Source: Glutamicibacter uratoxydans
GTDB taxonomy: Bacteria; Actinomycetota; Actinomycetes; Actinomycetales; Micrococcaceae
Assembly (NCBI RefSeq): GCF_006539925.1
Contig: NZ_BJNY01000007.1
Span: 124,001-188,000 of the forward strand
DNA: 64,000 nucleotides
Direction: 5' to 3'
The position numbers were made by a program, and so were the translations under genes. The stretch's first letter is position 1. Every line of letters begins with the position of its first letter. Under the pieces are notes generated by a model. That model saw only the letters and a list, made by a program, of their open reading frames with translations. It was not told the origin of the DNA and ran no database searches. Of this stretch, positions 1,553-25,927 are shown in pieces.

Positions 1553-1567
1553 GAAAGGAAACAGCTG

Positions 1568-6009: not shown

Positions 6010-6045
6010 GAATTACTCACCACAAAACCCTAAGGAGAAAAGACC

Positions 6046-7101
6046 ATGCGCGTTGGAGTAGACGGAAGCAAGATTCCGCACGAGGCCACCGACACCCCAT
6101 TCCAGATTCTGGATCGAGCGAAGAACTATGGGTTGGAAGGCGTGTACTTCCGCACAGTTCTCGATGTCTCCCCAACTCTTGACCGAGGTCTTCTAGCCGA
6201 AGTCCGCCAACATGCCGACGATTTGGGGCTCTACTTGCAAATGGGCCTGGCCAAGGTAAACCCCTATGCTGCGGCAGAAGCTCCGGCAGTGCGCCGTCTT
6301 GGCGACGGCGACTACACCCACGGCATGATCAAGATGATGGAAGCCTCCAGCCAGGCCGCCGGAGTCACCGACCTCTGGGTGGCCTGCGCCAACTACCAAA
6401 AGGGGCTGCCCGGCTACTACGTCTTCGACCGGTTCCGCACCGACGCGCCCTGGACCGACCAGCTGGCTGCCATTGAGAAGTTCCTCAAACTGCTGGCACC
6501 GGCAGCCCGCGAACACGGCGTCCACATGAACATTGAAACCCATGAGGAAATCACCAGCTACGAAGTGGTGCGCCTGGTCGAAGCCGTGGGTCCTGACGTC
6601 ACCGGCGTCACCTTCGATACCGCCAATGTGGTGGTACGTGGCGAAGACCCTGTAGCTGCTGCAAAACGAGTGGCGCCCTACACCCGAGCAACCCATTTGC
6701 GGGACTTTGTGCTGGGTGAACAGGACGGCGTCTTTGGCCGTGTATTTGCCACTATCGGTCAGGGTGTCATTGACTGGGACGCAGTACTCAAGATCTTGCA
6801 CGATGCCAATCCCGACTTGCCACTATCCATCGAAAATGCCGGGCCAACCCTGCATCTGCCCATCGGACTGGACGATCCCACATGGACTGCATTGCATCCA
6901 GATCTGAACAGCGCTGAGGTCGCGGAAATCCGACGACTGGCAGCTGACTACGCACAAAAAGTCGACCGTGGGGAACTTCCCAGCCTTCAAGAAATGCGAG
7001 AAGCCGGTTACGACGGGGAGAAAATGGTTCTTGAATCAGCAGTGCACCTGCGTGGCGCACTGGAACGATTGGGAATAGCCTCGGTTGGGTCCGCTCTCTA
7101 G
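6046..7101 (+). CDS. TIM-barrel sugar-phosphate isomerase/epimerase-like protein
   Basis: Complete 351-residue paralogue of the fragment at the left edge. It begins MRVGVDGSKIPHEATDTPF. The likely metal-binding residues lie in ETHEEITSYE, FDTANVVVRGEDP, THLRDFVL and LSIENAG, as expected for the AP-endonuclease-2/xylose-isomerase fold. The start follows a good ribosome site (AAGGAGAAAAGACC). The gene is last in the transporter operon and is followed by the hairpin at 7181-7224. Two related enzymes flanking one importer suggest consecutive or alternative steps on the imported compound; the reaction is unknown. Confidence 0.85.
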   Translation: MRVGVDGSKIPHEATDTPFQILDRAKNYGLEGVYFRTVLDVSPTLDRGLLAEVRQHADDLGLYLQMGLAKVNPYAAAEAPAVRRLGDGDYTHGMIKMMEASSQAAGVTDLWVACANYQKGLPGYYVFDRFRTDAPWTDQLAAIEKFLKLLAPAAREHGVHMNIETHEEITSYEVVRLVEAVGPDVTGVTFDTANVVVRGEDPVAAAKRVAPYTRATHLRDFVLGEQDGVFGRVFATIGQGVIDWDAVLKILHDANPDLPLSIENAGPTLHLPIGLDDPTWTALHPDLNSAEVAEIRRLAADYAQKVDRGELPSLQEMREAGYDGEKMVLESAVHLRGALERLGIASVGSAL

Positions 7102-13409: not shown

Positions 13410-13421
13410 TTGGTATACCAT
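13410..13421 (+). promoter_or_regulatory. GntR-type operator candidate TTGGTATACCAT
   Basis: TTGGTATACCAT, a near-perfect palindrome in the 94-bp gap between kdpC and the amidohydrolase gene. It matches the repeated TTGGTATACCAA-like motif found around the gntR/ABC operon at 18.9-26.1 kb in 11 of 12 positions. Confidence 0.6.
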
Positions 13422-13458: not shown

Positions 13459-14508
13459 ATGTCCCAGCCATTGATCGTCCCCGGATTCGTCAACGCCCAC
13501 GTCCACCCGGACAAGACCTCCTTTGGCAGCACCTGGCTGCACCGCAAGCCGGCGCACAGCCTCAAGGACCTGATCTCCAACGACCTTGAAACCCAGCTGG
13601 CCTACGCCGACAGCGTCGAAACCCGCATGGGCGCCCTGGTTCAAGATGCCATCGCCTCCGGCGTCACCGCCATGCGCGCCCACGTGGACTTCGGGCCGCA
13701 GATCGGCTTGAAGAACATCCACGGCGCGGCCGCGGTGGCGGAAAAATACAAAGAGATGATCGACATCCAGATCGTCGCCTTCCCGCAGTTCGGCCTGCTG
13801 AGCAACCCCGGCGCGGTGGACCTGCTGGAGGCGGCGCTGGGCGAGGGTGCGCAGCTGGTCGGCGGCATCGACCCCGAGGGGCTGGAACAGGATCTGCACG
13901 GACACCTGGACGTGGTGTTTGGGCTGGCCGAAAAGTACGGCCGCCGCGCGGATATCCACGTGCATGACACCGGCGAGGTGGGCTACCGCGAAATCCAGGA
14001 GATCGCCCGCCGCACCCAGGCGCTGGGCATGAACGGCCAGGTCACCATCGGCCACGCCTTCGCCCTGGCCGACGCCCCGAGCGCCGAGCTGGAACGCACC
14101 TTGGATGCGGTGGCCGAGGCCGGCATCTGGATCGCCACCTGCGCCCTGGGCTCGGACCCGGTGCCTGACCTTGACCTGCTGGCCAAGCACGGGGTCAACG
14201 TGGACCTGGGCACCGACGGCGTGCGCGATGCCTGGTCGCCCTTCGGCACCGCCTCTATGATGGACCGCGCCCACCTGCTGGCCTACCGCACCAACGCCAT
14301 CACCGATGAGCAGCTCGAACGCTGCCTCGACATCGCCACCATCGAGGGAGCGAAGATGATGGGCATCGACCGCGTGCTGAACCCAGTGCAGGGCGACGGC
14401 GCCTACTTCGAGGCCGAGCACCGCGCCCAGCTGGTGGTGGACCGTCCGGCCGCCTACCAGGTGGTGCGGGGCGGTGTGCAGATCGCCGCGAACGGTCGCC
14501 TAAGCTAG
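13459..14508 (+). CDS. CodA-like amidohydrolase lacking the usual N-terminal segment
   Basis: Metal-dependent hydrolase of the cytosine-deaminase/AtzC branch of the amidohydrolase superfamily, 349 residues. Expected metal and catalytic residues are visible: His14-x-His16 in NAHVHPD, His167/His169 in DIHVHD, His199 in IGHAF and Asp253 in GTDGVRDAWSPFG. It is a paralogue of the 407-residue enzyme at 17672-18895 (both have HLDVVFGLAEKY). The protein begins only about eight residues before the first strand of the barrel, so the N-terminal half of the composite sandwich domain (about 45 residues) is missing; the sequence upstream does not encode it. The start follows AGGAAAGGCAGCC. Substrate unknown; cyclic amides, pyrimidines or aminotriazine-like compounds are typical. 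Confidence 0.82.
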   Translation: MSQPLIVPGFVNAHVHPDKTSFGSTWLHRKPAHSLKDLISNDLETQLAYADSVETRMGALVQDAIASGVTAMRAHVDFGPQIGLKNIHGAAAVAEKYKEMIDIQIVAFPQFGLLSNPGAVDLLEAALGEGAQLVGGIDPEGLEQDLHGHLDVVFGLAEKYGRRADIHVHDTGEVGYREIQEIARRTQALGMNGQVTIGHAFALADAPSAELERTLDAVAEAGIWIATCALGSDPVPDLDLLAKHGVNVDLGTDGVRDAWSPFGTASMMDRAHLLAYRTNAITDEQLERCLDIATIEGAKMMGIDRVLNPVQGDGAYFEAEHRAQLVVDRPAAYQVVRGGVQIAANGRLS

Positions 14509-14512
14509 GTCC

Positions 14513-14878
14513 ATGTCGACTTCCCTGTACTACACTGCCACCCGCGCGGCGGCGCTGACCGATCTCGAACACCACCAGCTGATGAGCGTCGCCAGGGCGT
14601 ACAACGACGAGTTCGAATTCGACTACGAGACGCTGTATTTCTATCCGACCCAGCGCGCGGACGAGGTGCTCAACGGCTCCACGAAGATCTCCATGGAGCC
14701 GGCGGAAATGGCGCCTTCGCTGCTGCACTGGCTTGCGGCGCTGACGCAGCTGCGCCACACGCTGCCCGATGCCCATTGGGAGGTCTCGTTGGACGAGGTC
14801 GACGTGGACTGGGACGAAGAACGCGGCTACAGCCTGCCGGGCCTAGAAGACATGGCGGCGATGCTCGAAGAGTTCTAG
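14513..14878 (+). CDS. Hypothetical protein, acidic, 121 residues
   Basis: I do not recognise this protein. It begins MSTSLYYTATRAAALTDLEHH, has no signal peptide or membrane segment, and is rich in Asp/Glu towards the C-terminus (SLDEVDVDWDEERGY). It starts 4 bp after the amidohydrolase stop, suggesting co-transcription. It ends with a 4-bp tail-to-tail overlap with trpS. High-GC codon use and a sensible composition support a real gene. Confidence 0.65.
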   Translation: MSTSLYYTATRAAALTDLEHHQLMSVARAYNDEFEFDYETLYFYPTQRADEVLNGSTKISMEPAEMAPSLLHWLAALTQLRHTLPDAHWEVSLDEVDVDWDEERGYSLPGLEDMAAMLEEF

Positions 14879-15915
14879 TACACCGTGCCCATCGTCGCAC
14901 GCACCTGCTCCAAGGTGGCTTCAGCTTGCTCGTTGGCCGTGAGCGCGCCGCGGGCCAGAACCTCGGAGGCGAGGCCGGGCTGGGCGGCCAACTGCGCCCG
15001 CCGGGCGCGGTGTCCTGCCAGAAAATCATTGACAGCATCAGTGGCAAGCTTCTTCAGCGCACCGCTGCCGGCATCGCCCAGCTGCTCTGCCAAGGTCTGC
15101 TCGTCGCTGCCCAGGCACAGCGCCGCGGTGGTCAGCAGGGCGGAAACGCCGGGCCGATTCTCCGGGGCGAAGCTGATCCGGCGGTCGGAATCGGTCTGCG
15201 CGCCGCGGATGAGCTTGGCCGTCTGGTCGGCGCTCATGCCCAGGGCAATGGCGTTGGAATAGCTCTTGGACATCTTCCTGCCGTCGAGGCCCGGAATCTG
15301 CGGCGACTGCGTGATCAACGCCTGCGGCTCCTCGAAGACTTGCCCATAGCGTTCATTGAAGCGCCGCGCGATGAGCCGCGTCATTTCCACGTGCGGCAGG
15401 TTGTCTTTGCCGACGGGAACCACATTGCCCCTGCAGAACAGGATGTCTGCCGCCTGGTGCACCGGGTAGGTCAGCAGCAAGCCTGACAGCGCCCTTCCGC
15501 TGGCTTCAAGCTCGGATTTGACCGTTGGGTTGCGGTGCAGCTCCGCCTCGGAGACCAGCGAAAGGAAGGGCAACATCAACTGGTTCAGCGCCGGCACCAT
15601 GGAGTGGGCAAAGATCGTCGTGCTCTGCGGGTCGAGCCCGGCGGCCAGGTAGTCGAGCACTGCCGAATGCACGTGGTCACGCACCTGGCCCATGGCATCA
15701 CGGTCGGTGATCACCTGATAGTCGGCAATCACGATGAAAGTCTCCACGCCCGCCTGCTGCAGCTTCACCCGCTCGATGATGCTGCCGAAGAAGTGCCCCA
15801 AATGCAGGGCGCCGGTCGGGCGCTCTCCGGTGAGCACGCGGTAGTTGTGCGGAGCCGAGGCAATTGCGTCGGCCAGCTGCGTCGAGCGCTGTTGGGTGGA
15901 AAGAAAAGCCTGCAT
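14875..15915 (-). CDS. trpS: Tryptophanyl-tRNA synthetase (auxiliary type)
   Basis: Class I aminoacyl-tRNA synthetase that charges tRNA-Trp, 346 residues. The HIGH motif is HLGH at residues 38-41 and the KMSKS loop at 214-218. The segment RPTGALHLGHFFGSI followed by IADYQVITD resembles the second, inducible TrpRS type known from Streptomyces (TrpRS1) and Deinococcus (TrpRS II) rather than the GNYxGAL form of the usual housekeeping enzyme; this is from memory. It sits behind a tryptophan-rich leader peptide (16033-16068), which fits control by tryptophan starvation. The ribosome site is weak (CGGGAATTTAC). Confidence 0.93.
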   Translation of the reverse strand: MQAFLSTQQRSTQLADAIASAPHNYRVLTGERPTGALHLGHFFGSIIERVKLQQAGVETFIVIADYQVITDRDAMGQVRDHVHSAVLDYLAAGLDPQSTTIFAHSMVPALNQLMLPFLSLVSEAELHRNPTVKSELEASGRALSGLLLTYPVHQAADILFCRGNVVPVGKDNLPHVEMTRLIARRFNERYGQVFEEPQALITQSPQIPGLDGRKMSKSYSNAIALGMSADQTAKLIRGAQTDSDRRISFAPENRPGVSALLTTAALCLGSDEQTLAEQLGDAGSGALKKLATDAVNDFLAGHRARRAQLAAQPGLASEVLARGALTANEQAEATLEQVRATMGTVY

Positions 15916-16032: not shown

Positions 16033-16068
16033 CTACTGCAGCCACCACCAGTTCTGGATTGGGTTCAT
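16033..16068 (-). CDS. Tryptophan leader peptide of trpS (trpL-like)
   Basis: An 11-codon frame on the minus strand reads MNPIQNWWWLQ and then TAG: three consecutive Trp codons. It lies 117 bp before trpS and is followed by a hairpin. In ribosome-mediated attenuation, scarcity of charged tRNA-Trp stalls the ribosome at such codons and favours read-through into the synthetase gene; this is established for trp leaders and for the auxiliary trpS of Streptomyces coelicolor. There is no ribosome-binding site: the ATG lies six bases after a good -10 box, so it is probably translated from a leaderless transcript. Confidence 0.88.
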   Translation of the reverse strand: MNPIQNWWWLQ

Positions 16069-16119: not shown

Positions 16120-16404
16120 CTAATCCTCCACAGCACGAATGCTGTACTGGCGCTCAATGCCTGCCGTGGCACTCCCCCACACACTGGATTGCACCCTGCT
16201 CTGGTGCGCGTCGAAGGCTTCCTGCCCGCTGAAAAGCTCGCTGACTTCCCATATCAAAGGATCAGATGTCGGGCGGACGAAGAATTCAATGCACCCCTCT
16301 TCGGCCCGAGACAGTTCGGTGTGAAGGGCCAGATGCTCGGCCACGGCATCCGTCTGACTGCTCGTGGAACATATCAAGCGGCCGCTGAGCTCAATCTTCG
16401 TCAC
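16120..16404 (-). CDS. Antibiotic-biosynthesis-monooxygenase (ABM) domain protein
   Basis: A 94-residue protein with the single ferredoxin-like ABM/YgiN fold pattern: MTKIELSGRLICSTS, LALHTELSRAEEGCIEFFV, WEVSELFSGQEAFDAHQSR. Family members are quinol or aromatic monooxygenases or stress proteins that act as dimers. It lies just upstream of the trpS promoter in the same direction, with only 16 bp between its stop and the -35 box, so partial read-through into trpS is possible. Confidence 0.8.
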   Translation of the reverse strand: MTKIELSGRLICSTSSQTDAVAEHLALHTELSRAEEGCIEFFVRPTSDPLIWEVSELFSGQEAFDAHQSRVQSSVWGSATAGIERQYSIRAVED

Positions 16405-16454
16405 TTCGGGTCATGTCCTTACGCGTTGCATCTCCACTTGTGCTCCACTTTATC

Positions 16455-16488
16455 CACTATTCGTATAGTGAAAGGCACTTCGAAGTGC
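16455..16488. promoter_or_regulatory. Two adjacent palindromes upstream of toxin-like gene
   Basis: CACTAT-TCGT-ATAGTG (16455-16470) and the perfect 14-bp GCACTTCGAAGTGC (16475-16488) lie side by side in the region between the divergent ABM gene and the toxin-like gene. Two dyads 4 bp apart are typical of operator pairs. No regulator can be assigned. Confidence 0.5.
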
Positions 16489-16604
16489 GAAGTAGATCCG
16501 GTGCTCTGTTGGGGCCACTTTACGGGCGCCGCGTTAAGTTCGCCTATCCACAGTACGACGTAGTCCACGCTAAACGATCTGACTTTCACCTAGGATCTGA
16601 TTGT

Positions 16605-17111
16605 ATGAGCCCAGATAAAAGACAGCGCCGAAGCGCTGGCAAGGGGCCACGAGAAAAAGCCCCAAGTCCAGCTATCAAGATCATGTCTTCAAGCGACGAT
16701 GAACATTTGATCGTTTATTTCAAACGAAACATGAACGAAGATCCTTCCGAGTCCATACCTGGCAGGGATTTTCTCAACTCATGTCCACCTTCAGTCCGAG
16801 CTAAAATGCGTGCGGTGCTTGTTGCGGTTGCTTCGGCCCCACCCAAAAAATTCTCAGGCGGTGGATATTTGGAAGCCATGCATGACGAGATGGTCGGCTG
16901 GTTCGAGATTCGCGTCGACGGACCGGGCAGGCGCCACTATCGTCTTTTCTGCAGACTCGACTACGATGCCCTGGAAATGACGAAGCCGCTTCTCGTAGTT
17001 ATTGACGGTCGCAGCAAACCTTTTAGAACAGTTTTGTCAGAGAGTGAGTACTCCCAGATCCGCAAACTGGGCGATGAGTATTTCGCGAATAATCCCCGCC
17101 ACATCACATAA
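16605..17111 (+). CDS. RelE/HigB-like (phage Gp49-type) toxin candidate
   Basis: Basic protein of 168 residues from the ATG at 16605 (AGGA 9 bases upstream); ATG 16683 would give a 142-residue form starting MSSSDDEHLI. The core VRAKMRAVLVAVASAPPKKF, then LEAMHDEMVGWFEIRVDGPGRRHYRLFCRLDYD resembles HigB/Gp49-type ribonuclease toxins, in which the F/W-E-I/L-R and YR-x-F/Y strands are conserved. GC content and codon use are lower than in the neighbours, suggesting transfer. The candidate antitoxin gene faces it tail to tail, 8 bp away, rather than following it. The frame is open further upstream without a credible start. Confidence 0.6.
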   Translation: MSPDKRQRRSAGKGPREKAPSPAIKIMSSSDDEHLIVYFKRNMNEDPSESIPGRDFLNSCPPSVRAKMRAVLVAVASAPPKKFSGGGYLEAMHDEMVGWFEIRVDGPGRRHYRLFCRLDYDALEMTKPLLVVIDGRSKPFRTVLSESEYSQIRKLGDEYFANNPRHIT

Positions 17112-17119
17112 ATCAGAAA

Positions 17120-17530
17120 TTACGCTGCAGTTGACGAAGTTTGACCAAACGCATCCAAACATTCGCCTAATTCTTTAGCATTTGCAGCATGTCCATCAAT
17201 CAATGGACGAGAAATCCATTCACGCTGGGAGTTCGATAATGGCTCAAGAGTAACTTTCATTCCCAACGCGGCGGCAACTTCAGAAAGAGTTCCTAGTGTT
17301 GGATTGGAGGCGGTCCCGGAAAAAAGCCTGCGCACGGTGGCGGGATTCGCATTGATAGCCCGTGCAAGGTCCGCTTTGCTCAGACCAGCCGCTACACGAG
17401 CACCATCCAGTTCATTCACGATGCTGTCAATAGTCGCAATTCGGACTGATTCCACAATGTATTCCCTGAGGAACTCAGGGTCTTCAAGATCCTTGCGCAA
17501 GTCTTCCCAGAATGTGTTTGGTGATTCCAT
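17120..17530 (-). CDS. XRE-family HTH protein, antitoxin-like
   Basis: A 136-residue protein with a helix-turn-helix at about residues 48-95 (ARVAAGLSKADLARAINANPATVRRLF ... LGTLSEVAAALGMKVTLEPL; written here in two parts), the pattern of HigA/XRE antitoxins. I take ATG 17530 (MESPNTFWED) as the start because GGGAG lies six bases upstream; a TTG four codons earlier is an alternative. A 54-bp nested palindrome overlaps the ribosome site. It is convergent with the toxin-like gene. Confidence 0.75.
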   Translation of the reverse strand: MESPNTFWEDLRKDLEDPEFLREYIVESVRIATIDSIVNELDGARVAAGLSKADLARAINANPATVRRLFSGTASNPTLGTLSEVAAALGMKVTLEPLSNSQREWISRPLIDGHAANAKELGECLDAFGQTSSTAA

Positions 17531-17537
17531 TGCCACT

Positions 17538-17591
17538 CCCAAAATCAGCTAAGTGCGTAACATAAATGTTACACACTTAGCTGATTTTGGG
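17538..17591. repeat. 54-bp nested palindrome covering the ribosome site of the XRE gene
   Basis: Outer arms 17538-17555 and 17574-17591 are perfect 18-bp inverted repeats; one mismatched pair follows, then perfect inner arms GTAACAT (17557-17563) and ATGTTAC (17566-17572) around AA. The inner part looks like an HTH operator. The outer arm includes the GGG of the GGGAG ribosome site, so in RNA the hairpin would hide the start of the antitoxin-like gene. Confidence 0.85.
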
Positions 17592-17610
17592 CAAGGAATG
17601 CCGAAGCCAT

Positions 17611-17653
17611 AAAAATAAACGGCCGCCGGGGACTCGCATACCCGGCGGCCGTT
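17611..17653 (-). terminator. Rho-independent terminator of the amidohydrolase/ABC operon
   Basis: Perfect 13-bp stem (17618-17630 with 17641-17653, GC-rich) and a 10-base loop, followed on the minus strand by a T-rich tract (TTTATTTTTAT). It lies directly after the stop of the amidohydrolase gene. Confidence 0.92.
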
Positions 17654-17671
17654 GGCCTTGATTCGCTACTT

Positions 17672-18895
17672 CTAGTAGCTGTTCTCCACAGAGAGAACCT
17701 TCAGCCCGTCGGCGACAACGCGGCCGTCGTGGATGACGGTGCGGTCTCTGCCGCGGTCCATGATGGTTGAAACAACCGTTTCGCCGTCAACCAGCACCAG
17801 GTCGGCGCGGTCGCCCACGGCAATGCCTGGACGATCGGCCACCGAAGCCAGACGCGGCACGTCCGGGCTCATGATCGACGCGCCGCCGATGGTGGCAACA
17901 GCCAGGCAGTGCTCGATCAGCTCGTCCTTGCGGAAGCCGTTGACGAAGGCCAGCTGCCAGGTGCGGTCCAGCAGATCGCAGTTGCCATAGGGGCTCCAGT
18001 AGTCGCGCTGGCCGTCTTCGCCCAGGCCGAAGCGCACGCCGGCTTCGGTCAGCGCGGCCAGGGACAGGTGGTTGGAGGTGCTCGGAGCCACCGAGGTCAT
18101 CGCGATGTCCAGCTCGGCAAAGGTGTCGATCAGGCGGCGGCTGGTGGCCTCGTTGACGCTGCCCAGCTCGTAGGCGTGGGAGATGGTGACCTTGCCCTGC
18201 ATGCCCAGCGCGCGGGTGCGCTCGGCAATCAGGTCAGCGGAGAAGACGCCCTGGGTGCCGTGCTCGTGCAGGTGGATGTCGATCTCGGTCTGGTACTTTT
18301 CGGCCAGACCGAACACCACGTCGAGGTGGCGGACCGGGTCGCGGTCCAGCTCGCAGGGGTCGATGCCGCCCATGACATCGGCGCCGGCCTTCAGCGCGTC
18401 TTCCAGGTACTTTTCGGTGCCCGGCTCCAGCAGGATGCCTGCCTGCGGGAAGACCATGATCTGGACTTCAGCCTCGTTGGCGAACTTCTCCTTGGCGGCG
18501 GCCACTGCCTCGTACTTCTCCAGCTTGCAGTCCACGTCCACTTGGGCGTAGGAGCGCACGCGGGTGGTACCGCGGGCGATCATGCGCTCCAGGGTGCCGG
18601 CAACGCGCTCGTTCAGTCCGATCTCTGCATTGCGCCAGTTCTCGCGGTCGTTGCTCATCATGCCCCAGACGCCCGGGCGGCCGGTGTGCTCGCGGAACGG
18701 CAGGCCGATGCGGGTGGAGTCCAGGTGCACGTGCACGTCGGAGAAGGATGGGATCAGGATGCGGCCGCGGCCGTCCACGTCGCCGGCTTCCAGTTGGCGC
18801 GATGGGTCGTGGGCGGTGATGGCGGTGATCTTCTCGCCCTCAATGGTGATGTCGCTGGCGTTGCCGCCCCAGGGGCGGGCGTTGCTGATCAGCAC
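17672..18895 (-). CDS. CodA-like amidohydrolase (cytosine deaminase/AtzC branch)
   Basis: Metal-dependent hydrolase of 407 residues. The N-terminal sandwich strand region (residues 1-50) leads to His55-x-His57 in DVHVHLD; further ligands are His208/His210/Glu211 in DIHLHEH, His240 in ISHAYE and Asp294 in GEDGQRDYWSPYG, the arrangement seen in E. coli cytosine deaminase. The substrate is unknown and need not be a pyrimidine. GTG start with GGAAGG nine bases upstream. It is last in the ABC operon, but the 48-bp gap before it contains its own copy of the TTGGTATACCAA-like motif, so it probably also has a separate promoter. Confidence 0.88.
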   Translation of the reverse strand: MLISNARPWGGNASDITIEGEKITAITAHDPSRQLEAGDVDGRGRILIPSFSDVHVHLDSTRIGLPFREHTGRPGVWGMMSNDRENWRNAEIGLNERVAGTLERMIARGTTRVRSYAQVDVDCKLEKYEAVAAAKEKFANEAEVQIMVFPQAGILLEPGTEKYLEDALKAGADVMGGIDPCELDRDPVRHLDVVFGLAEKYQTEIDIHLHEHGTQGVFSADLIAERTRALGMQGKVTISHAYELGSVNEATSRRLIDTFAELDIAMTSVAPSTSNHLSLAALTEAGVRFGLGEDGQRDYWSPYGNCDLLDRTWQLAFVNGFRKDELIEHCLAVATIGGASIMSPDVPRLASVADRPGIAVGDRADLVLVDGETVVSTIMDRGRDRTVIHDGRVVADGLKVLSVENSY

Positions 18896-18925
18896 TGTGT
18901 GTTTCCTTCCATAGCGGATGCGGTA

Positions 18926-18937
18926 TTGGTATACAGA
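18926..18937 (-). promoter_or_regulatory. GntR-type operator candidate before amidohydrolase
   Basis: TTGGTATACAGA (10 of 12 matches to TTGGTATACCAA) in the short gap between the ATPase stop and the amidohydrolase GTG. Confidence 0.55.
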
Positions 18938-18943
18938 ATAGTC

Positions 18944-19939
18944 CTAGGCGCCGACGGTTGCTGCCAGCGGCGCGTTGGGGAAGTGGCAGGCCATGGCCCC
19001 GGCCGGGACCTCGGTGGAACAGCGCTGCTTTCCTGCCTCGTCCAGAAGTTCGTAGGCGGGGCAGCGGGTGCGGAAGACGCAGCCCGAGGGCGGATTGCTC
19101 GGGGACGGCAGGTCGCCGCCCAGGCGGATGCGCTCGGTCAGCGCCGCGTCCAGATCCACGCTCGGCACCGCCGAAAGCAGGGCCCGGGTATACGGGTGGC
19201 GGGGGTTCTCAAAGAGCTCGCGCTTGTTGGCCTGCTCCATGATCTTGCCCAGGTACATCACCGCGACGTCGTCGGCCATGTGCTTGACCACCGCCAAGTC
19301 GTGGGCGATGAAGATGTACGAGACCCCGGTGTCTGCCTGGATGTCCTTGAGCAGGTTCACCACCTGGGCCTGCACCGACACGTCAAGCGCGGAGACCGGC
19401 TCGTCGCAGATCACCACATCCGGGTCCAGGGCCAGCGCCCGGGCAATGCCGATGCGCTGGCGCTGACCGCCGGAGAATTCGTGCGGGAAGCGGTTTGCAT
19501 GCTCCGGGCGCAGGCCCACGCGGTCCATCAGGTCGGCCACCTTGGCCTTGATGCCGCCGGGGACCTTGATGCGCTGCTCCACCAGCGGCGAGGCGATGGC
19601 CGCGCCGATGGACTGGCGCGGGTTCAGCGAGGAGGCAGGATTTTGGAAGACCATCTGCACGCGGCGGCGGAAGCCGTCCAGCTGCTTGCCTTTGAGCCCG
19701 GTGATGTCCTCCCCGTCGAGCTTGATGCTTCCAGAGGTCGGGTCCAGCAGGCGCATGAGCACCTTGCCGGTGGTGGACTTGCCGCAGCCTGATTCGCCCA
19801 CCAGGCCCAGGGTAGTGCCCTTTTCAAGGGTGAAGCTGACCCCGTCGACAGCCTTGACGGCTCCCACGGTGCGGCCCATCGAGCCCTTGATCGGGAAGTG
19901 CTTGGTCAGGTTCGTGACCTCTAAGAGTGGCGCGCTCAT
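18944..19939 (-). CDS. ABC transporter ATP-binding protein (OppF-like)
   Basis: ATPase of 331 residues: Walker A GESGCGKS at 48-55, Q-loop MVFQNPASSLNPR, signature FSGGQRQR at 155-162, Walker B VVICDEP at 175-181, and the C-terminal Cys-containing extension CVFRTRCPAYELLDEAGKQRC (last part) of peptide importers. It overlaps the OppD-like gene upstream by 4 bp. Subunit of the importer encoded at 18944-24735. Confidence 0.94.
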   Translation of the reverse strand: MSAPLLEVTNLTKHFPIKGSMGRTVGAVKAVDGVSFTLEKGTTLGLVGESGCGKSTTGKVLMRLLDPTSGSIKLDGEDITGLKGKQLDGFRRRVQMVFQNPASSLNPRQSIGAAIASPLVEQRIKVPGGIKAKVADLMDRVGLRPEHANRFPHEFSGGQRQRIGIARALALDPDVVICDEPVSALDVSVQAQVVNLLKDIQADTGVSYIFIAHDLAVVKHMADDVAVMYLGKIMEQANKRELFENPRHPYTRALLSAVPSVDLDAALTERIRLGGDLPSPSNPPSGCVFRTRCPAYELLDEAGKQRCSTEVPAGAMACHFPNAPLAATVGA

Positions 19940-20949
19940 GAGCCGGCTCCGATCAGGCTTGTCTCGTCAATCAATTTCAGTTCGTGCCCGTGGCAGCGCA
20001 CCGCGTGGTCGTCTTCCACGATCAGCTCCGGTCGCATGTTCAGGCAGCGGCCGTCGGGCACGATCTTCGCGAACTCGCAGCGGTCGGCGAAGATGCAGCC
20101 CTTGGGCAGGGCCAGCAGCGCCGGCGGCGAGCCGGGAATCGGGGTGAGGCGGTCGGTGTCCCCTGCCAGATGCGGCATGGAGGCCATGAGCCCTCGGGTG
20201 TAGGGGTGGGAGGGGCGCTGGAAGATCTGGCGGACGCTTGCCTGCTCCACGCACTGCCCGCCGTACATGACCACCACGCGCTTGCACAGCTGGGCCACCA
20301 CGCCCAGGTCGTGGGTCACGAAGATGACAGCTGAATTCGTTTCGGCCTGCAGGTCGGAGATCAAATCCAGGATCTGCGCCTGCACGGTGACATCCAGTGC
20401 GGTGGTCGGCTCGTCGGCGATCAGCAGCTCCGGTTCGCAGACCAGTGCCATGGCGATCATGGCGCGCTGGCGCATGCCGCCGGAGAATTCGTGCGGGTAG
20501 TTGTCCACCCGGCGCTTGGGATCCGGGATGCCTACACGCCCGAGCATGTCGATGGCCACCTGGCGGGCGGCCTTCTTGGAGACCTTGTTGTGTACCTGGT
20601 AGGCCTCGGCGATCTGCGCGCCCACGGTGTAGAAGGGGTGCATTGCAGAGAGCGGATCCTGGAAGATCATGCCGATCTTCTTGCCGCGGTAGGGGCGCAT
20701 GGCGTCTTCGCTCAGCGCCAGCAGGTCGGTGCCCTCGAAGGTGATCTCGCCGTCGATGACCGCGCGGGATTCCTTGAACAGGCCCATGATCGCCTGGCTG
20801 GTCACCGACTTGCCGGAGCCGGATTCGCCGACCAGGCCCACGGTCTCGCCGCGGTTCAGGGTCAGGTCCATGCCGTTCAGGGCGGCGACCATTCCGTCGT
20901 CGGTGGGGAACTTTACGGTCAGGTTCTTGACCGACAGCATCGGTTCCAT
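19936..20949 (-). CDS. ABC transporter ATP-binding protein (OppD-like)
   Basis: ATPase of 337 residues: Walker A GESGSGKS at 41-48, Q-loop [12 protein letters not shown], signature FSGGMRQR at 155-162, Walker B LLIADEP at 175-181, and a C-terminal CIFADRCEF cysteine motif. It starts directly next to the stop of the permease gene, so translation is probably coupled. Confidence 0.94.
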
Positions 20950-21951
20950 TTAGTTCACCTTGACTCTCGGATCGATGAAGGCGTAGGCAATGTCTACCAG
21001 GACGTTGAAGAAGATGATGAAGAAGGCAGCCAGCATGGTGATCGCCATGGTCACCGGCAGGTCGCCGCTGGTGGCGGCCTTCACTGCGGTGAAGCCCAAA
21101 CCCGGCACCGAGAAGATCTGCTCGGTGAGCACCGCGCCGCCCAGCAGGGCGCCGAGGTCAAGGCCCAGCATGGTGATGATCGGGGTGATGCCGGCGCGCA
21201 CGCCGTGCTTGAAGACGATCTTGCGGCGGGACAGGCCCTTGGCCCGTGCGGTGCGCATGAAGTCCTCGGAGAAGGTCTCGATCATGTTGTTGCGGGTGAT
21301 GCGCACATACTGTGCGGAGAACAGCACCGCCAGCGCGACCCAGGCCAGGAAGTAGTTGGTCACCCACGCCCCGAATCCTGCCTCACCGAAGGGAGAGACG
21401 ATCTGGTTGGTGGTGAAGGGGAACCAGCCCAGGGTGCCGACGAAGACCAGCAGCAGCACCAGGCCGGTCACCGGGATCGGCAGCGAGACGCCGATGGAGG
21501 ATGCTCCGACGATGAAGCGGTCGGTCAGCTTCCCCTTCCGCATGGCAGCCAGCAAGCCAAAACCTACGCCCACGATGGTCCACATGAGCACCGCGCCGAT
21601 GGCCAGCGAGAGGGTGTACGGCAGCGCGTTGGCGATCATGTCCGTGACGTTCTCGTTGGTCTGGAAGCTCTTGCCGAGGCAAGGCCAGGCGCACATCTGC
21701 TCTGCGCCCGGGGCTCCGAGCATGCGCGGGCCGACCAGGCCCGACAGGAAGGCGAAGTACTGGACGAAGAACGGCTTGTCCAAGCCCAGTGCCACGCGGG
21801 CCTGCTCGACGCGGTCCGGGGTGCATTCCTGTCCACAGGCGGCCGAGGCGGGGTCTGCCGGACCGAAGTGGAAGAGGGTGAAGGTAATGAAGCTGACGAC
21901 GAGAAGCAACAGGAGCATCGCGCCGAATCTGCGGAAGAGGAAACTAACCAT
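20950..21951 (-). CDS. Oligopeptide-type ABC transporter permease (DppB-like)
   Basis: Permease of 333 residues. I take ATG 21951 (MVSFLFRRFGAMLLLLLVVS) as the start: AAGGAAAA lies upstream, and the longer open frame reads into the binding-protein gene. Features are FHFGPADPASAACGQECTP, a periplasmic region with a second Cys pair (MCAWPCLGKSF) and the coupling loop ARAKGLSRRKIVFKHGVR. Paired cysteines of this kind are common in actinobacterial homologues and may form disulfides outside the membrane. Confidence 0.92.
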   Translation of the reverse strand: MVSFLFRRFGAMLLLLLVVSFITFTLFHFGPADPASAACGQECTPDRVEQARVALGLDKPFFVQYFAFLSGLVGPRMLGAPGAEQMCAWPCLGKSFQTNENVTDMIANALPYTLSLAIGAVLMWTIVGVGFGLLAAMRKGKLTDRFIVGASSIGVSLPIPVTGLVLLLVFVGTLGWFPFTTNQIVSPFGEAGFGAWVTNYFLAWVALAVLFSAQYVRITRNNMIETFSEDFMRTARAKGLSRRKIVFKHGVRAGITPIITMLGLDLGALLGGAVLTEQIFSVPGLGFTAVKAATSGDLPVTMAITMLAAFFIIFFNVLVDIAYAFIDPRVKVN

Positions 21952-21962
21952 GAGTGTTTTCC

Positions 21963-23684
21963 TTACTTGGCGACGCCGACCGTGCTCAGGTCGATAGCGC
22001 CGAAGAAGTAACCAACCTGGGCGTTGCGGATGTTGGATCCGACCACCGAGTTGGTGTAGCTGTGCATAGTCGGCACCAGTGGGTAGGTTGCCATGACTTC
22101 GTTGTAGATCTCGGACCACTTGGCGCCGAGCTCTTCAGGGGTGCCGTTGGCGCCGCGCAGCTCGTACATCTTCTTGGACAGGTCCTTGTCGTAGAAGCGT
22201 GGGATGTTGCTGAATCCGTAGGTCTTGCCATCCAGCGATGGGCCGAGGTTCGGATCAACGGTCATGCGTGCCGAGGAGGAGTCGGCGCCGCCGCACCAGC
22301 CGGAGCGGGCGATGTCAGGCATTTCCTTGCCGGCCAGGGTGGAGTAGTAGTTCGCTGCAGGAATCGGGCGCAGTTCCAGCTCGATGCCCAGTTCCTTCAG
22401 GTTCTGCTGCAGCACGGTGCCCACGTTCTTGTAGCGCTCGGTGGAGTTCGCGTAGCCGTAGACCAGATTCTTCGGGACGTCCTTGCCTTCCAGCAGCGCC
22501 TTGGCTTCTTCCAGCTTTGGCTTGCCGTCGGCCGACAGGTCGGTCTTCTGCTCGGTGACTCCCACCATCTGCGGGGTCAACTGGCTGGTGACCAGCTGGC
22601 CGAAGCGGGCTCCGCCGTACTGCACCTGGATGGCTTCGCGGTCCATCGCCAGGGCGATGGCCTTGCGAACATCCGGGTCCTTGATGGTTTCGGTGTTCAA
22701 GTCAATCACGTCGATGCAGCCCAGGAAGCCACTGGCGGTGCGGGCTTTGACCTTCGCATCGTTCAGGCTGGCGGTATCCGATGCCTGCATCGCGCCGTTG
22801 GAATCCAGGGTGATGGCGTTCGGATCGGCGTCAGAGATCAGCTTCTGCGAAATGGTCGCCTGCGAGCTGGAGAGGCTGAAGGTGAAGGTGTCAGGCAGGG
22901 CCGAACGGTTAGGATCGGTGGCCGGGTCCCAGTTCTCGTTGCGTTCGAGGACCAGTTCGCGTCCGCGGTCGTAGCTCTTGACCTTGTACGGGCCGGAGGA
23001 CACCGGGTGGTTGGTGTAGTCCAGCTTGGTGTCCTTCTTCTCCGGCACCGGTGCGGTGTTGGAGCGGGAAACCAGTGCAGGGAATTCAGCGAAAGGCTGC
23101 TTGAGGTGGAAGACAATGGTCTTGTCGTCCGGGGTCTCGATGGCTTCCAGATCATCATCCGAGTACGGGCCCTTGTAGCCGTCGTCGGTCAGTGCCGAGT
23201 TCAGCTCCTGCGGTGCCTGGGTGTAGACGTCGCGGGCATAGGTGCGCTCCACGCCGTACTTGATGTCCTTGGAGGTGATCGGGGTGCCGTCCTCGAACTT
23301 CAGCCCGTCCTTCAGGGTGTAGGTCCAGGTCTTGCCGTCCTTGGAGACCTTGCCGGTGTCGGTGGCCAGATCCGGAACGATCTTAGGAGGCTGGCCGGCA
23401 GTTTCCTTGGCCATGGTCAGGGTGCGGTAGTACAGCTGGCCGACGTTGGCGGTCTGCACGTAGTTCGAGTTGCCTGGATCCAGGGTCGCGAAGTCGGCCG
23501 ACATCAGTACGTTGACGTTGCCGCCCTTCTCGGCGAAGCCGGACTGCACGATCACTGGAGCATATGGATCGGCCTGTGCGCCGTCCTGCCCACCCTGTGG
23601 TGCCTTGGAACCGCCGGCGCAGCCGGTGAGTGCCAGGGCTGCGACTGCTGCAACGGACAGCAGTTTTGTAGCTCGCGAATTCAT
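21963..23684 (-). CDS. Substrate-binding lipoprotein of peptide-type ABC transporter (SBP family 5)
   Basis: Solute receptor of 573 residues with signal peptide and lipobox LTGC (Cys22). Family 5 motifs: FATLDPGNSNYVQ, KTWTYTLKDGLKFEDGTPIT, HPVSSGPYKVKSYDRGRELVLERNENWDP, and a C-terminal region GYFFGAIDLSTVGVAK. A strong ribosome site (AGGAGGAC) precedes the ATG. It should determine which compound reaches the operon's amidohydrolase; its sequence does not say which. Confidence 0.93.
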   Translation of the reverse strand: MNSRATKLLSVAAVAALALTGCAGGSKAPQGGQDGAQADPYAPVIVQSGFAEKGGNVNVLMSADFATLDPGNSNYVQTANVGQLYYRTLTMAKETAGQPPKIVPDLATDTGKVSKDGKTWTYTLKDGLKFEDGTPITSKDIKYGVERTYARDVYTQAPQELNSALTDDGYKGPYSDDDLEAIETPDDKTIVFHLKQPFAEFPALVSRSNTAPVPEKKDTKLDYTNHPVSSGPYKVKSYDRGRELVLERNENWDPATDPNRSALPDTFTFSLSSSQATISQKLISDADPNAITLDSNGAMQASDTASLNDAKVKARTASGFLGCIDVIDLNTETIKDPDVRKAIALAMDREAIQVQYGGARFGQLVTSQLTPQMVGVTEQKTDLSADGKPKLEEAKALLEGKDVPKNLVYGYANSTERYKNVGTVLQQNLKELGIELELRPIPAANYYSTLAGKEMPDIARSGWCGGADSSSARMTVDPNLGPSLDGKTYGFSNIPRFYDKDLSKKMYELRGANGTPEELGAKWSEIYNEVMATYPLVPTMHSYTNSVVGSNIRNAQVGYFFGAIDLSTVGVAK

Positions 23685-23736
23685 GAGTCCTCCTAAGGAT
23701 CTTCTACTGCGAGTGGTGAAAGGAAAAAGCTTGAGA

Positions 23737-24735
23737 CTAGCGCGAGGACTTGGGATCCAACGCGTCTCGCAGGGCGTCGCCCAGCAAGTTGAAGGCCAGC
23801 ACCGTCAGGATCAGCGCGATGCTCGGCACCGCCAGGAACCATGGATCCTGCAGGTACCAGTTGCCTGCCTGCGCTGCGTTGAGCATCTGTCCCCAGGAAG
23901 GGGTTGGATCCTTGACACCGACGCCCAGGAAGGACAGCGCCGCTTCGGCGGTGATATTGGTTGGGATCATCATCGTCGCGTACACCAGCACCACGCCGGT
24001 GACGTTCGGGATGACCTGCTTGATGATCATCGACCAGTTCTTCGTGCCGAAGGACTTGGCCGCATCGATGTATTCCTGCTCGCGGATCGAAAGCACCTGG
24101 CCTCGAACCACGCGGGCCAGATAGGCCCAGCCGAAGAATCCAAGCACGATCACCAGCGAGGCGATCGGGACGAAGGAGCCTCGGGCCAATGCGGTGCCCG
24201 AGAGTCGGGACTGCAGGATCGGTGCGATGGACAACACCAGCAGCAGGTGCGGGAAGGCCAGGAACAAGTCCATGATGCGGCTGATGACCATGTCGATCTT
24301 GCCGCCGAAGTAGCCTGCAGCGGCCCCGAGCACGGTGCCAAGGACGACGGAGACCAGGGTGGAGAGCAGCGCAATGATCAGCGACACCTGGGCGCCATAG
24401 GCGAGGCGTGCGAACAGGTCGCGGCCCAGGCCAGGCTCGACGCCCAGCCAGTGCTCTGCGCTGGGGTACATGTAGTACGGAAGCGGCAGGCCAGGGGTGT
24501 AGAAGTTATCCAGCACCTCGGGCGAGGTGTTGGTGGTGTTCGGGTCTTGTCCTTCAATCCCTACCAAGACCGGGGCGAGGATCGCGAAGAGCACCATGCC
24601 CACCACGATGGCCAAGCTGACCATTGCCACAGGACTTTTGCGGATGCGCATCCATGCCGTGGCCAGCAGTGAGCGCCCGGTGGCTACGGGCTTCGCCTTA
24701 GCCTGTTCCGAAGGTTTCGAGGCCGTTGCGGTCAT
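23737..24735 (-). CDS. Oligopeptide-type ABC transporter permease (DppC-like), first gene of operon
   Basis: Permease of 332 residues with a 40-residue cytoplasmic N-terminus, then membrane segments. Motifs: HWLGVEPGLGRDLFARLAYG, the coupling loop DAAKSFGTKNWSMIIKQVIPN and ALSFLGVGVKDPTPSWGQM. It is the first gene of the operon, with operator-like palindromes 47-170 bases upstream (24782-24902). The order permease C, binding protein, permease B, two ATPases, amidohydrolase differs from the first ABC operon in the window. Confidence 0.93.
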   Translation of the reverse strand: MTATASKPSEQAKAKPVATGRSLLATAWMRIRKSPVAMVSLAIVVGMVLFAILAPVLVGIEGQDPNTTNTSPEVLDNFYTPGLPLPYYMYPSAEHWLGVEPGLGRDLFARLAYGAQVSLIIALLSTLVSVVLGTVLGAAAGYFGGKIDMVISRIMDLFLAFPHLLLVLSIAPILQSRLSGTALARGSFVPIASLVIVLGFFGWAYLARVVRGQVLSIREQEYIDAAKSFGTKNWSMIIKQVIPNVTGVVLVYATMMIPTNITAEAALSFLGVGVKDPTPSWGQMLNAAQAGNWYLQDPWFLAVPSIALILTVLAFNLLGDALRDALDPKSSR

Positions 24736-24781
24736 TGGCCGGTCCCCCTAGTGCTAGTGAGTGATCTAAGTAACAGAAGAA

Positions 24782-24816
24782 ACCGTATACCAAAAAGCGC
24801 CATCTTGGAATACCAA
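24782..24816 (-). promoter_or_regulatory. Pair of GntR-type operator candidates before the ABC operon
   Basis: ACCGTATACCAA (24782-24793, 9 of 12 matches) and TTGGAATACCAA (24805-24816, 11 of 12). Their centres are 23 bp apart, about two helical turns, and they lie 47-81 bases before the first permease codon. Confidence 0.65.
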
Positions 24817-24890
24817 AAATAGAAGAGTTGGCAAGAATCTTAAAATATTCAGATCAAATCGCGAGATCAAGCGATTAACTAAAGCAAAAT

Positions 24891-24902
24891 TTCGGATACC
24901 AA
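24891..24902 (-). promoter_or_regulatory. GntR-type operator candidate (distal)
   Basis: TTCGGATACCAA, 10 of 12 matches to the motif, 75 bp behind the 24805-24816 copy and in the same gap. Confidence 0.45.
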
Positions 24903-24972
24903 ACAATTGCTTCATATTCACATTAGGGATGAAAGTCAGACTTGCGGTATCCCGCGAGTGCGGGCAAGAGAA

Positions 24973-25019
24973 AAGACCCGCCCCTCGCCGCCTGAGAGGC
25001 GGGCACAGGGGCAGGTCTT
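24973..25019 (-). terminator. Terminator of gntR
   Basis: Long interrupted stem: AAGACC/GGTCTT outside, CCCCT/AGGGG in the middle and CCGCCT/AGGCGG at the top. On the minus strand it is followed by TTTTCTCTT. It lies 26 bases after the gntR stop. Confidence 0.75.
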
Positions 25020-25044
25020 GCTCCGAGAAAAATTCCGAGCGACG

Positions 25045-25704
25045 CTAGTGTGCGCCAACGGCCACTTTGGCCTGCCGGGCGTTGGCGCTGGCGCGACTAG
25101 TTTCCAGGTGCTCGGGAATCAATTCGTCCATGGCCGCCGCATCACGGGCGGCGATTGCCTCATAGAGGCGCTCGTGTTCCAGAGCCATCTGCATGAGGTC
25201 GTCATGCTGGGCCATCAGCCATCGCATGCGCCCTCCCAGCGACCTGTGCAGCTCGCAGAGTAGTTCATTGCCCGCCATAGAATTGACCAGATCGTGGAAT
25301 CTCGCCCCCGCACGACGCGAGACTACTGCATCGCCGCTGCGTGCGCTGTCGATTTCCTCATCCAGCACTTCTCTCAAGTCGCTCAGCGACTGGCGCGTGT
25401 ACCGCTGGGCCGCGAGCTTGAATGTCATCAGCTCCAAGGCCACGCGCACCTCAATCACATCGGCGATGTCAGCAGCCTTAAACTCCCTGACCGTCGCGCA
25501 GCTGCGCGGACGCTGTAGCACTAGCCCCTCGGAGATCAGCACCTTGAGCGCCTCGCGCACAGGAAGTCGGCTCACACCCAGCTCTGCAGCTACTTCACGC
25601 TCGATCAACTTCGACCCAGGAAGCTTCAGGCCGTCAATAATGGCAGAACGCAGCTGCTCTGCAACCCGAACCGCCTCCGGTTCAAAATCTTGCTTTTCGG
25701 ACAC
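25045..25704 (-). CDS. GntR-family transcriptional regulator (FadR/VanR type, FCD domain)
   Basis: A 219-residue regulator. The winged HTH is in residues 10-75 (GSKLIEREVAAELGVSRLPV, REALKVLISEGLV). The C-terminal all-helical FCD ligand domain has the spaced histidines in RFHDLVNSM, LEHERLYEAI and EHLETSR that often bind a metal and a carboxylate ligand. GTG start with AGGAGG seven bases upstream; the frame stays open to 25971 but that extension is not protein-like. TTGGTATNCCAA is the kind of dyad GntR/FadR proteins bind, and copies flank this gene and the ABC operon, so it is the likely local repressor and probably regulates itself. Confidence 0.9.
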   Translation of the reverse strand: MSEKQDFEPEAVRVAEQLRSAIIDGLKLPGSKLIEREVAAELGVSRLPVREALKVLISEGLVLQRPRSCATVREFKAADIADVIEVRVALELMTFKLAAQRYTRQSLSDLREVLDEEIDSARSGDAVVSRRAGARFHDLVNSMAGNELLCELHRSLGGRMRWLMAQHDDLMQMALEHERLYEAIAARDAAAMDELIPEHLETSRASANARQAKVAVGAH

Positions 25705-25915
25705 CTTAAAACCTCCTGCTGAATTTGAGAATGCGATGGGCGGCAGAATTCGCCGCAATAAGAATTGATAAACATCCGCTACCGCCAGGACGCCCGTCCT
25801 GATGCTTTGCCAGCCTCGGTGAGCGTGGCGACCGTATGCGGCAGGCTCCCAGGAGCTGCAACAGTTCAGCACATCAGGGCGGAACCGCGGGATGTCCTCA
25901 CACCCTATCCTTTTT

Positions 25916-25927
25916 GGTATTCCAAAG
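25916..25927 (-). promoter_or_regulatory. GntR-type operator candidate upstream of gntR
   Basis: TTGGTATTCCAA (11 of 12), the exact reverse complement of the copy at 24805-24816. It is extended by one matching pair (TTTGG...CCAAA) and lies 212 bases before the gntR start. Confidence 0.65.

Follow-up and report, generated by a model that had tools for sequence, protein, structure and literature searches.

Gene content and transcription units of the locus

The 64,000-nucleotide stretch of the Glutamicibacter uratoxydans genome analyzed here (positions 124,001–188,000 of contig NZ_BJNY01000007.1; hereafter, the window) carries on its minus strand, at 17672–25704, genes for (in the order of transcription) an FCD-type GntR regulator, an OppC permease, a family-5 binding protein, an OppB permease, two ATPases and an amidohydrolase (AH), which we propose to belong to a dispersed FCD-GntR regulon. 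A sequence-only reading had described this set as an import-and-hydrolysis system with an FCD-GntR regulator, a complete peptide-type ATP-binding cassette (ABC) importer and a CodA-like amidohydrolase on one strand, and domain matches confirm that composition. The regulator gene, gntR1 (25045–25704; 219 amino acids, ATG at 25704 within a listed open reading frame (ORF) extending to 25971), has a product scoring 73.1 bits against PF07729 (FCD, cut-off 24.3) and 57.3 bits against PF00392 (cut-off 27), which places it in the FCD subfamily. It is followed by the OppC/DppC-type permease (23737–24735; PF00528 and PF12911), the family-5 solute-binding protein (21963–23684), the OppB/DppB-type permease (20950–21951; 333 amino acids, ATG at 21951; PF00528 and PF19300), the OppD-type (19936–20949) and OppF-type (18944–19939) ATPases, both assigned by family match, and AH (17672–18895; 407 amino acids, PRK05985 type).

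The strong terminator said to close the set is likewise found after AH as a hairpin with a T-rich tail (17588–17660, minus strand; -39.5 kcal/mol, z -4.84). It was detected by folding energy and z score and is not among the sites of a terminator pattern scan of the window, which returned 7 sites vs. 8.4 in shuffled sequences and, thus, no excess. The notion of one unit held in part: the genes do share a strand, but a terminator-like hairpin with a T-tail separates gntR1 from the importer (25004–24976, minus strand; z -2.61), so that gntR1 and the importer–AH genes probably form two transcription units.

AH is very likely an active metal-dependent hydrolase of the AtzC/CodA branch, since its catalytic residues (H55, H57, Q151, H208, H240 and D294), all intact, are identical in each of 82 aligned sequences (72 named orthologues, 3 copies of a second amidohydrolase, AH2, 4 alphaproteobacterial and 2 distant actinobacterial homologues, and AH of the window). 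Its score against the PRK05985 subfamily (NF004636) is 398.5 bits at a cut-off of 408, and AH2 (393.6 bits) and the AH2 of Paenarthrobacter aurescens (406.5 bits) also fall slightly under this value. AH did not reach the NCBIfam cut-offs for cytosine deaminase (CodA; 127.8 of 483, 126.5 of 438 and 101.2 of 403 bits) or those for hydantoinase and allantoinase (TIGR02033, 22.3 of 393.25; TIGR03178, 19.4 of 357.85). Its closest solved relative is 6nbo from Burkholderia multivorans (269 bits, 38% identity), whose label “N-isopropylammelide isopropylaminohydrolase” derives from the entry name alone, followed by AtzC (148–153 bits) and cytosine deaminases (97–107 bits). A predicted model of AH (mean pLDDT 84.3; weak near residues 63–74 and 294–304) matches the same structures in the same ranking, with AtzC second, then 5-methylcytosine deaminase and CodA. 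AH has the fold (TM about 0.86 for AtzC and about 0.8 for CodA) and the catalytic residues of AtzC and of the CodA/5-methylcytosine deaminase branch, but is only 26–28% identical to them (26–27% to AtzC), and AtzC has Asp where AH has Glu at 211. AH2 (13459–14508, plus strand; 349 amino acids) belongs to the same family, with a shorter N-terminus and 35% identity to AH, and abuts kdp-like genes in the window. In a Glutamicibacter relative (genome G005, locus L050), AH appears as two segments that lie in different frames, as would be seen for a broken gene.

The Opp/Dpp-type importer is complete (SBP_bac_5, two permeases and two ATPases with the oligo_HPY region), and none of its subunits reached a curated equivalog cut-off for the named dipeptide, oligopeptide, nickel or glutathione importers among the families listed (for the ATPases, the best 25 of 189 and of 185 families; nearest, 404.9 of 408 bits for a subfamily model). 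By sequence score, the best solved relative of the binding protein is OppA2 (222–225 bits, the next ones 90–98), a protein named for the clavulanic acid biosynthetic cluster of Streptomyces clavuligerus. An AlphaFold model of the binding protein (mean pLDDT 46.8) was dropped as ligand evidence.

Conserved dyads and their link to the regulator

The control regions of these genes carry copies of a short dyad, TTGGTATACCAA, found 15 times in the window at up to three mismatches vs. a mean of 6.4 in shuffled sequences, with none of 100 shuffles reaching 15. Among the dyads that the sequence-only reading had placed at control points, two are strong: TTGGTATTCCAA at 25914–25925 (reported as 25916; one mismatch), about 210 bp 5' of the gntR1 start and predicted to be a likely autoregulatory operator, and TTGGAATACCAA at 24805–24816 (one mismatch), 76 bp before the OppC permease start and predicted to be the main operator. 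Both sequences recur in locus L021, the nearest relative with the same operon, the former 59 bp before an OCD gene that precedes gntR and the latter 74 bp before the permease gene. A search for an OCD remnant 5' of gntR1 in the window gave only matches with E above 0.08. The flanking dyad at 24782–24793 (three mismatches) and a second upstream one at 24891–24902 (two mismatches) are weaker, and TTGGTATACAGA at 18926–18937, between the OppF ATPase and AH genes (two mismatches), may be a chance match because it has no counterpart in L021. A good match before AH2 (TTGGTATACCAT, 13410–13421) and sites beyond the window had been missed, and the picture of a closed unit as the whole system proved too narrow.

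For the comparative analysis, 80 named loci were kept out of 227 places encoding a relative. Their genes were called by a rule based on G+C content by codon position, which leaves starts and small ORFs rough; AH2 genes in relatives were recovered with the AH query, clustering identified the DppB genes, and for four loci (L068, L089, L099 and L127) the caller returned no AH ORF. At up to two mismatches, TTGGTATACCAA precedes 28 of 35 PRK06151 genes, 20 of 26 OppC-type and 11 of 26 CynX genes, all three OCD and both DUF3100 genes, 4 of 7 NCS2 permease genes and 6 of 11 close GntR genes, as well as 17 of 76 AH, 2 of 28 other GntR and 2 of 33 binding-protein genes. A control with 59 permuted palindromes gave class means of 0 to 0.34 (top single control, 7); since one control palindrome scored 7/7 in the NCS2 class, the two-mismatch figure for that class carries no weight. 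With one mismatch at most, the counts are 4/7 for NCS2, 14/35 for PRK06151, 9/26 for OppC, 11/26 for CynX, 3/3 for OCD, 3/11 for GntR and 13/76 for AH (controls, 0–1). Among other genes, 5 of 400 sampled had a site. The locus counts are not independent, because PRK06151 and OppC genes are often divergent with common sites and because the loci are related by descent. In 66% of 83 sites with at most one mismatch, an extra T/A pair lies outside the 12 selected bases, giving TTTGGTATACCAAA. Taken across loci, this recurrence provides good support for the dyads as conserved operators.

FCD-GntR regulators usually repress their targets until a pathway compound binds, and motifs similar to TTGGTATACCAA are common for FCD regulators (UxuR/ExuR), a point that a literature text search did not confirm. 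GntR control of the import-and-hydrolysis unit, as the sequence-only reading had assumed, gains comparative support from the co-occurrence of regulator and dyad. The best matches of GntR1 in eight other AH-bearing genomes are 57–62% identical, and all nine genomes with a match of at least 57% (out of 39 AH-bearing genomes, this one included) have a dyad with at most one mismatch in the AH locus vs. 4 of the remaining 30 genomes, a group that includes five with GntR matches of 47–49% (Fisher p 3e-6, kinship ignored; 9/9 vs. 8/30 at up to two mismatches). The scan covered 15 kb of the window for this genome and about 20 kb for most others. A paralogue, GntR2 (55% identical to GntR1; L147 4340–5002, contig C2), is encoded beside an OCD gene and near allantoin-type genes, and a third GntR homologue is also present in this genome.

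Dispersed sites and partner genes across genomes

A scan of the whole genome at up to one mismatch returned 11 sites vs. 4 for the reversed pattern. Ten of the 11 are associated with the present gene set or with further permease or deaminase genes, and the remaining one, inside a coding region, is taken as chance. The sites precede gntR1, the importer, AH2, a PRK06151 homologue, the OCD-family gene beside GntR2, a CynX transporter, a ProY-type permease, an APC permease and a cytidine-deaminase-fold gene; one more (GTGGTATACCAA) is located between an NCS1 permease–racemase pair and genes resembling hydroxypyruvate isomerase, tartronate semialdehyde reductase, glyoxylate carboligase and allantoinase (all four named by eye, with only the amidohydrolase domain of the allantoinase-like gene confirmed). 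Protein searches located the OCD and PRK06151 genes, for each of which the top match lies directly behind a dyad; the CynX, ProY, APC permease and deaminase genes were met via their sites. Because dyads also precede these dispersed genes, an explanation by a cis-only operon was dropped. The PRK06151 homologue (522.8 bits at the NF004801 cut-off of 416; 601.4 and 536 elsewhere) has its start roughly 1.3 kb beyond the left edge of the window; a second Opp-type operon runs divergently from it, and the PRK06151 dyad is at C7:122765. This second operon (window 674–7101 plus the left flank) includes two xylose-isomerase-like TIM-barrel genes, and comparable operons with a dyad nearby occur in genome G086 (L226).

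Sites at related genes are also seen in other genomes. In P. aurescens TC1, AH2 and an APC permease gene flank one site; the NCS1–racemase pair stands behind an exact site in Streptomyces (racemase 81% identical) and behind a one-mismatch site in Amycolatopsis, where a xanthine-permease cluster is divergent to AH (503.8 bits at a cut-off of 414.15, for the one of seven members tested). A gene for a secreted amidohydrolase follows a one-mismatch site in G086, P. aurescens TC1 and Streptomyces sp. NBC_01016 and a two-mismatch site in G016, G007 and G023; in this genome it follows a two-mismatch site, precedes an MFS gene and an Asp/Glu/hydantoin racemase gene, carries a twin-arginine signal (judged by eye) and is 60% identical to the G086 copy. 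Site vs. reversed-control counts are 7/3 in P. aurescens TC1, 4/0 in Streptomyces, 3/0 in Amycolatopsis and 3/1 in Microbacterium. The existence of the regulon across genera is, on these sequence comparisons, well supported.

Partner genes recur among the 80 named loci with PRK06151 in 35, CynX in 26, a xanthine-permease cluster in 7, OCD in 3, DUF3100 in 2 and a close GntR in 9. A GlcD-like gene beside CynX in 12 loci was rejected as a member (none of the 12 has a dyad with at most one mismatch within 500 bp upstream). This neighborhood search also found the binding protein and an ATPase of the importer together with AH in 29 loci, of which 23 have PRK06151 and 19 CynX, and a DppB query gave a match of at least 60% in 32; the hosts with the importer include Glutamicibacter, Microbacterium, Paenarthrobacter, Streptomyces, Kitasatospora and Saccharopolyspora. 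These 29 loci, along with the dyads still kept by the dispersed OCD and PRK06151 genes, argue against the view that the importer and AH are mere neighbors and that several FCD-GntR regulators, unrelated to each other but sharing a motif class, use the dyads. We regard this view as very improbable, even though it would agree with the prevalence of similar motifs among FCD regulators and with GntR2 and the third homologue in this genome, as well as with the presence of the same importer in only 2 of 38 other AH loci of the genome set (G007 and G086).

The association of AH with PRK06151 extends to alphaproteobacterial plasmids. The two genes are adjacent in 8 of 10 annotated plasmid regions opened (Sinorhizobium, Alloyangia, Phyllobacterium, Gemmobacter, Defluviimonas, Haematobacter, Paroceanicella and Marinovum), all eight with Opp-type importer genes; the exceptions are L212 (PRK06151 only) and L217 (AH only), and some regions add a GntR, flavin reductase, racemase, nucleoside deaminase or allantoinase gene. 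Identity between the plasmid and actinobacterial proteins is about 38–41% for AH and PRK06151 and 38–42% for the racemases. Since the plasmid binding proteins are just 24–26% identical to either binding protein of the window, we do not claim the importers to be orthologous. Nor is the operator common to the plasmid regions, as TTGGTATACCAA at up to two mismatches is absent from all 10, some of which carry TTGT-NN-ACAA-like dyads instead. The AH–PRK06151 pair is thus conserved across two phyla, and the importer may have been recruited separately.

Closer to AH in the window, a gene for a small ABM-domain protein (16120–16404, minus strand), which adjoins the 3' side of AH in L021, is 1.3 kb off with other genes in between and is possibly a former operon member. 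The intervening segment holds a Cro/C1-type helix-turn-helix gene (17120–17542, minus strand) convergent with an ORF at 16413–17111 (plus strand), of which the part at 16599–17111 has no Pfam match; AH and the ABM gene are contiguous in G007, and this gene pair could be a toxin-antitoxin-like insertion. An unrelated observation concerns the leader of a gene at 14875–15915 (minus strand), judged by eye to be tryptophanyl-tRNA synthetase-like: it contains the ORF MNPIQNWWWLQ (16033–16068, minus strand) with three consecutive Trp codons and, behind this ORF, hairpins that include a terminator-like one (16044–16025), and resembles a Trp leader-peptide attenuator. An Rfam search of the window gave no match, for this element or otherwise.

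Candidate substrates and known systems

With respect to function, we consider it fairly probable that this FCD-GntR regulon scavenges nitrogen from nucleobase- or cyclic-ureide-like rings. This reading is favored because of the co-regulated transporters and enzymes and of the GntR–allantoin genes of Mycobacterium smegmatis described below. A xanthine permease and allantoin-type NCS1 permeases are among the transporters found next to AH in place of the Opp importer or behind the same operator. Judged by the dyad, co-regulation extends to genes for a hydantoin-type racemase and a nucleoside-type deaminase, and in G086 also to one for a barbiturase-like enzyme. The amide- or peptide-linked substrate proposed by the sequence-only reading could still apply, but the gene company points more to a nucleobase- or ureide-like ring. 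In the proposed scheme, GntR1 and its paralogue GntR2 would repress the dispersed regulon via TTTGGTATACCAAA-type operators until their FCD domain is occupied by an inducer, which is probably a compound of the pathway; small nitrogen-rich rings related to nucleobases or cyclic ureides would enter the cell through the Opp-type importer; AH would act on them together with AH2 and the PRK06151 enzyme, removing exocyclic amino groups or opening ring amides; and the products would feed carbon and nitrogen metabolism. The substrate class, repression (rather than activation), the pairing of GntR with its sites, induction, chemistry and direction of transport are what we infer.

Several observations weigh against this reading. 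None of the scored partner genes is present in 24 of the 80 named loci, and 26 of the 39 AH-bearing genomes have no dyad with at most one mismatch in the fetched AH locus, so that AH is not tied to the regulon. Four AH loci have such a dyad without a GntR match of at least 57%, three of them carrying another GntR-type gene (33–50%). Genome-wide site vs. control counts are 5/4 in G007, 5/4 in G016 and 2/2 in G037, barely above control, and raw counts alone therefore show no regulon in these three (8/3 in G086); several sites in G086 and G016, and one each in P. aurescens TC1 and Amycolatopsis, fall at or inside genes that do not fit. Peptides are the usual annotation of the importer class, and amino-acid derivatives would suit the ProY and APC permeases, OCD and the prolidase-like secreted enzyme no less well. 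Of 14 genomes searched, 11 have no barbiturase-family gene, and the copy of G. uratoxydans has only a two-mismatch site, 30 bp before the match.

As a rival reading, the regulon could serve cyclic compounds linked to amino acids or peptides (cyclic arginine or proline derivatives, hydroimidazolones, N-acyl amino acids), which the secreted prolidase/arginine-carboxypeptidase-like enzyme would cut outside and the Opp importer would take up, with AH opening the ring and the OCD-family enzyme reducing a cyclic imine. Besides the importer class with its OppA2-like binding protein and the sites of the ProY and APC permeases, this alternative draws on the kinship of the secreted amidohydrolase (L225 8089–9426, L177 2070–3404, L206 5618–6961) to arginine carboxypeptidases and prolidases (Xaa-Pro dipeptidases), as well as to ochratoxinase, on a pyrroline-2-carboxylate reductase as the nearest relative of OCD, and on an M24 peptidase found in L059 and next to a Sinorhizobium meliloti cluster. 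Neither the secreted enzyme nor OCD, however, reaches a curated family cut-off, and the xanthine permease, NCS1 permease, racemase, nucleoside deaminase and barbiturase-family gene fit amino-acid derivatives poorly. On balance, we judge this alternative unlikely.

The barbiturase/AtzD family bears both on ring nitrogen scavenging and on a further alternative, a specialized s-triazine pathway of the melamine/atrazine type with PRK06151 as AtzB/TriA, AH as AtzC and a ring opener as AtzD. In G086, outside the window, a gene of this family is preceded, at a distance of about 86 bp, by an exact TTGGTATACCAA, and its product scores 185.4 bits against TIGR02714 (above the cut-off of 153.1), and a second such gene forms an operon with an NCS2 (xanthine-type) permease and a CynX-like transporter behind a weak two-mismatch site, TTGGGATCCCAA. 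These genes, the recurring CynX-type transporters, the rank of AtzC as second structural match of AH and a weak match of PRK06151 to triazine hydrolases are all consistent with triazine degradation. Yet AH is just 26–27% identical to AtzC, the G086 protein is closer to barbiturase (167 bits) than to cyanuric acid hydrolase (129 bits) among solved structures and stays below the cut-off of the AtzD model NF052395 (173.1 of 360), most genomes searched have no such gene, and host habitats span soil to deep sea and skin; we hold a specialized triazine pathway to be distinctly unlikely, somewhat more so than amino-acid derivatives. In this genome, the barbiturase-family gene (L231 8587–9861, i.e., C7:202586–203860; match at 202598–203686, 37%) is directly upstream of an apparent second kdp set (by eye). 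A 74% copy in Microbacterium sp. Au-Mic1 (L232) ends an operon with an importer like the second one of the window, with no site of up to two mismatches in the stretch read. As the gene is absent from most genomes searched, from the 80 named loci and from the 10 plasmid regions, it appears to be an occasional, not a constant, partner.

Between the favored scavenging of ring nitrogen and a specialized triazine pathway lies a possibility that we likewise consider unlikely, about as much as the amino-acid alternative: an FCD-GntR-controlled natural parallel to the lower part of the atrazine/melamine pathway. The importer would take up an amino-substituted nitrogen ring, possibly freed outside from an amino-acid conjugate by the secreted amidohydrolase; PRK06151 (AtzB/TriA-like) and AH (AtzC-like) would remove the amino groups, and a barbiturase/AtzD-like enzyme would open the resulting ring in some hosts. 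Identification of the substrate would reveal what is acted on in nature by two enzyme subfamilies whose labels now derive from pesticides or read “cytosine deaminase”, could bear on the origin of atrazine-degrading enzyme types and would correct “peptide transporter” annotations; the operator and the list of partners make the regulon directly testable.

FCD-GntR catabolic regulons are of a known kind. In agreement with the sequence-only reading, which knew of no described pathway with this gene set, neither this regulon nor the AH–PRK06151–Opp pairing was found described, and no assigned substrate for the regulon or the AH–PRK06151 pair was found, in the open-licence literature. A parallel comes from M. 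smegmatis, where msmeg_5727, 5729, 5730 and 5731 encode an allantoicase, a hydantoin racemase, an allantoin-family permease and a GntR regulator, all up under nitrogen limitation according to the excerpted text of the source (PMC4617892). No AtzC-like gene is listed among msmeg_5727–5731 in that excerpt; likened by gene type, these genes match the C2 locus of this genome, whose NCS1–racemase pair carries the dyad.

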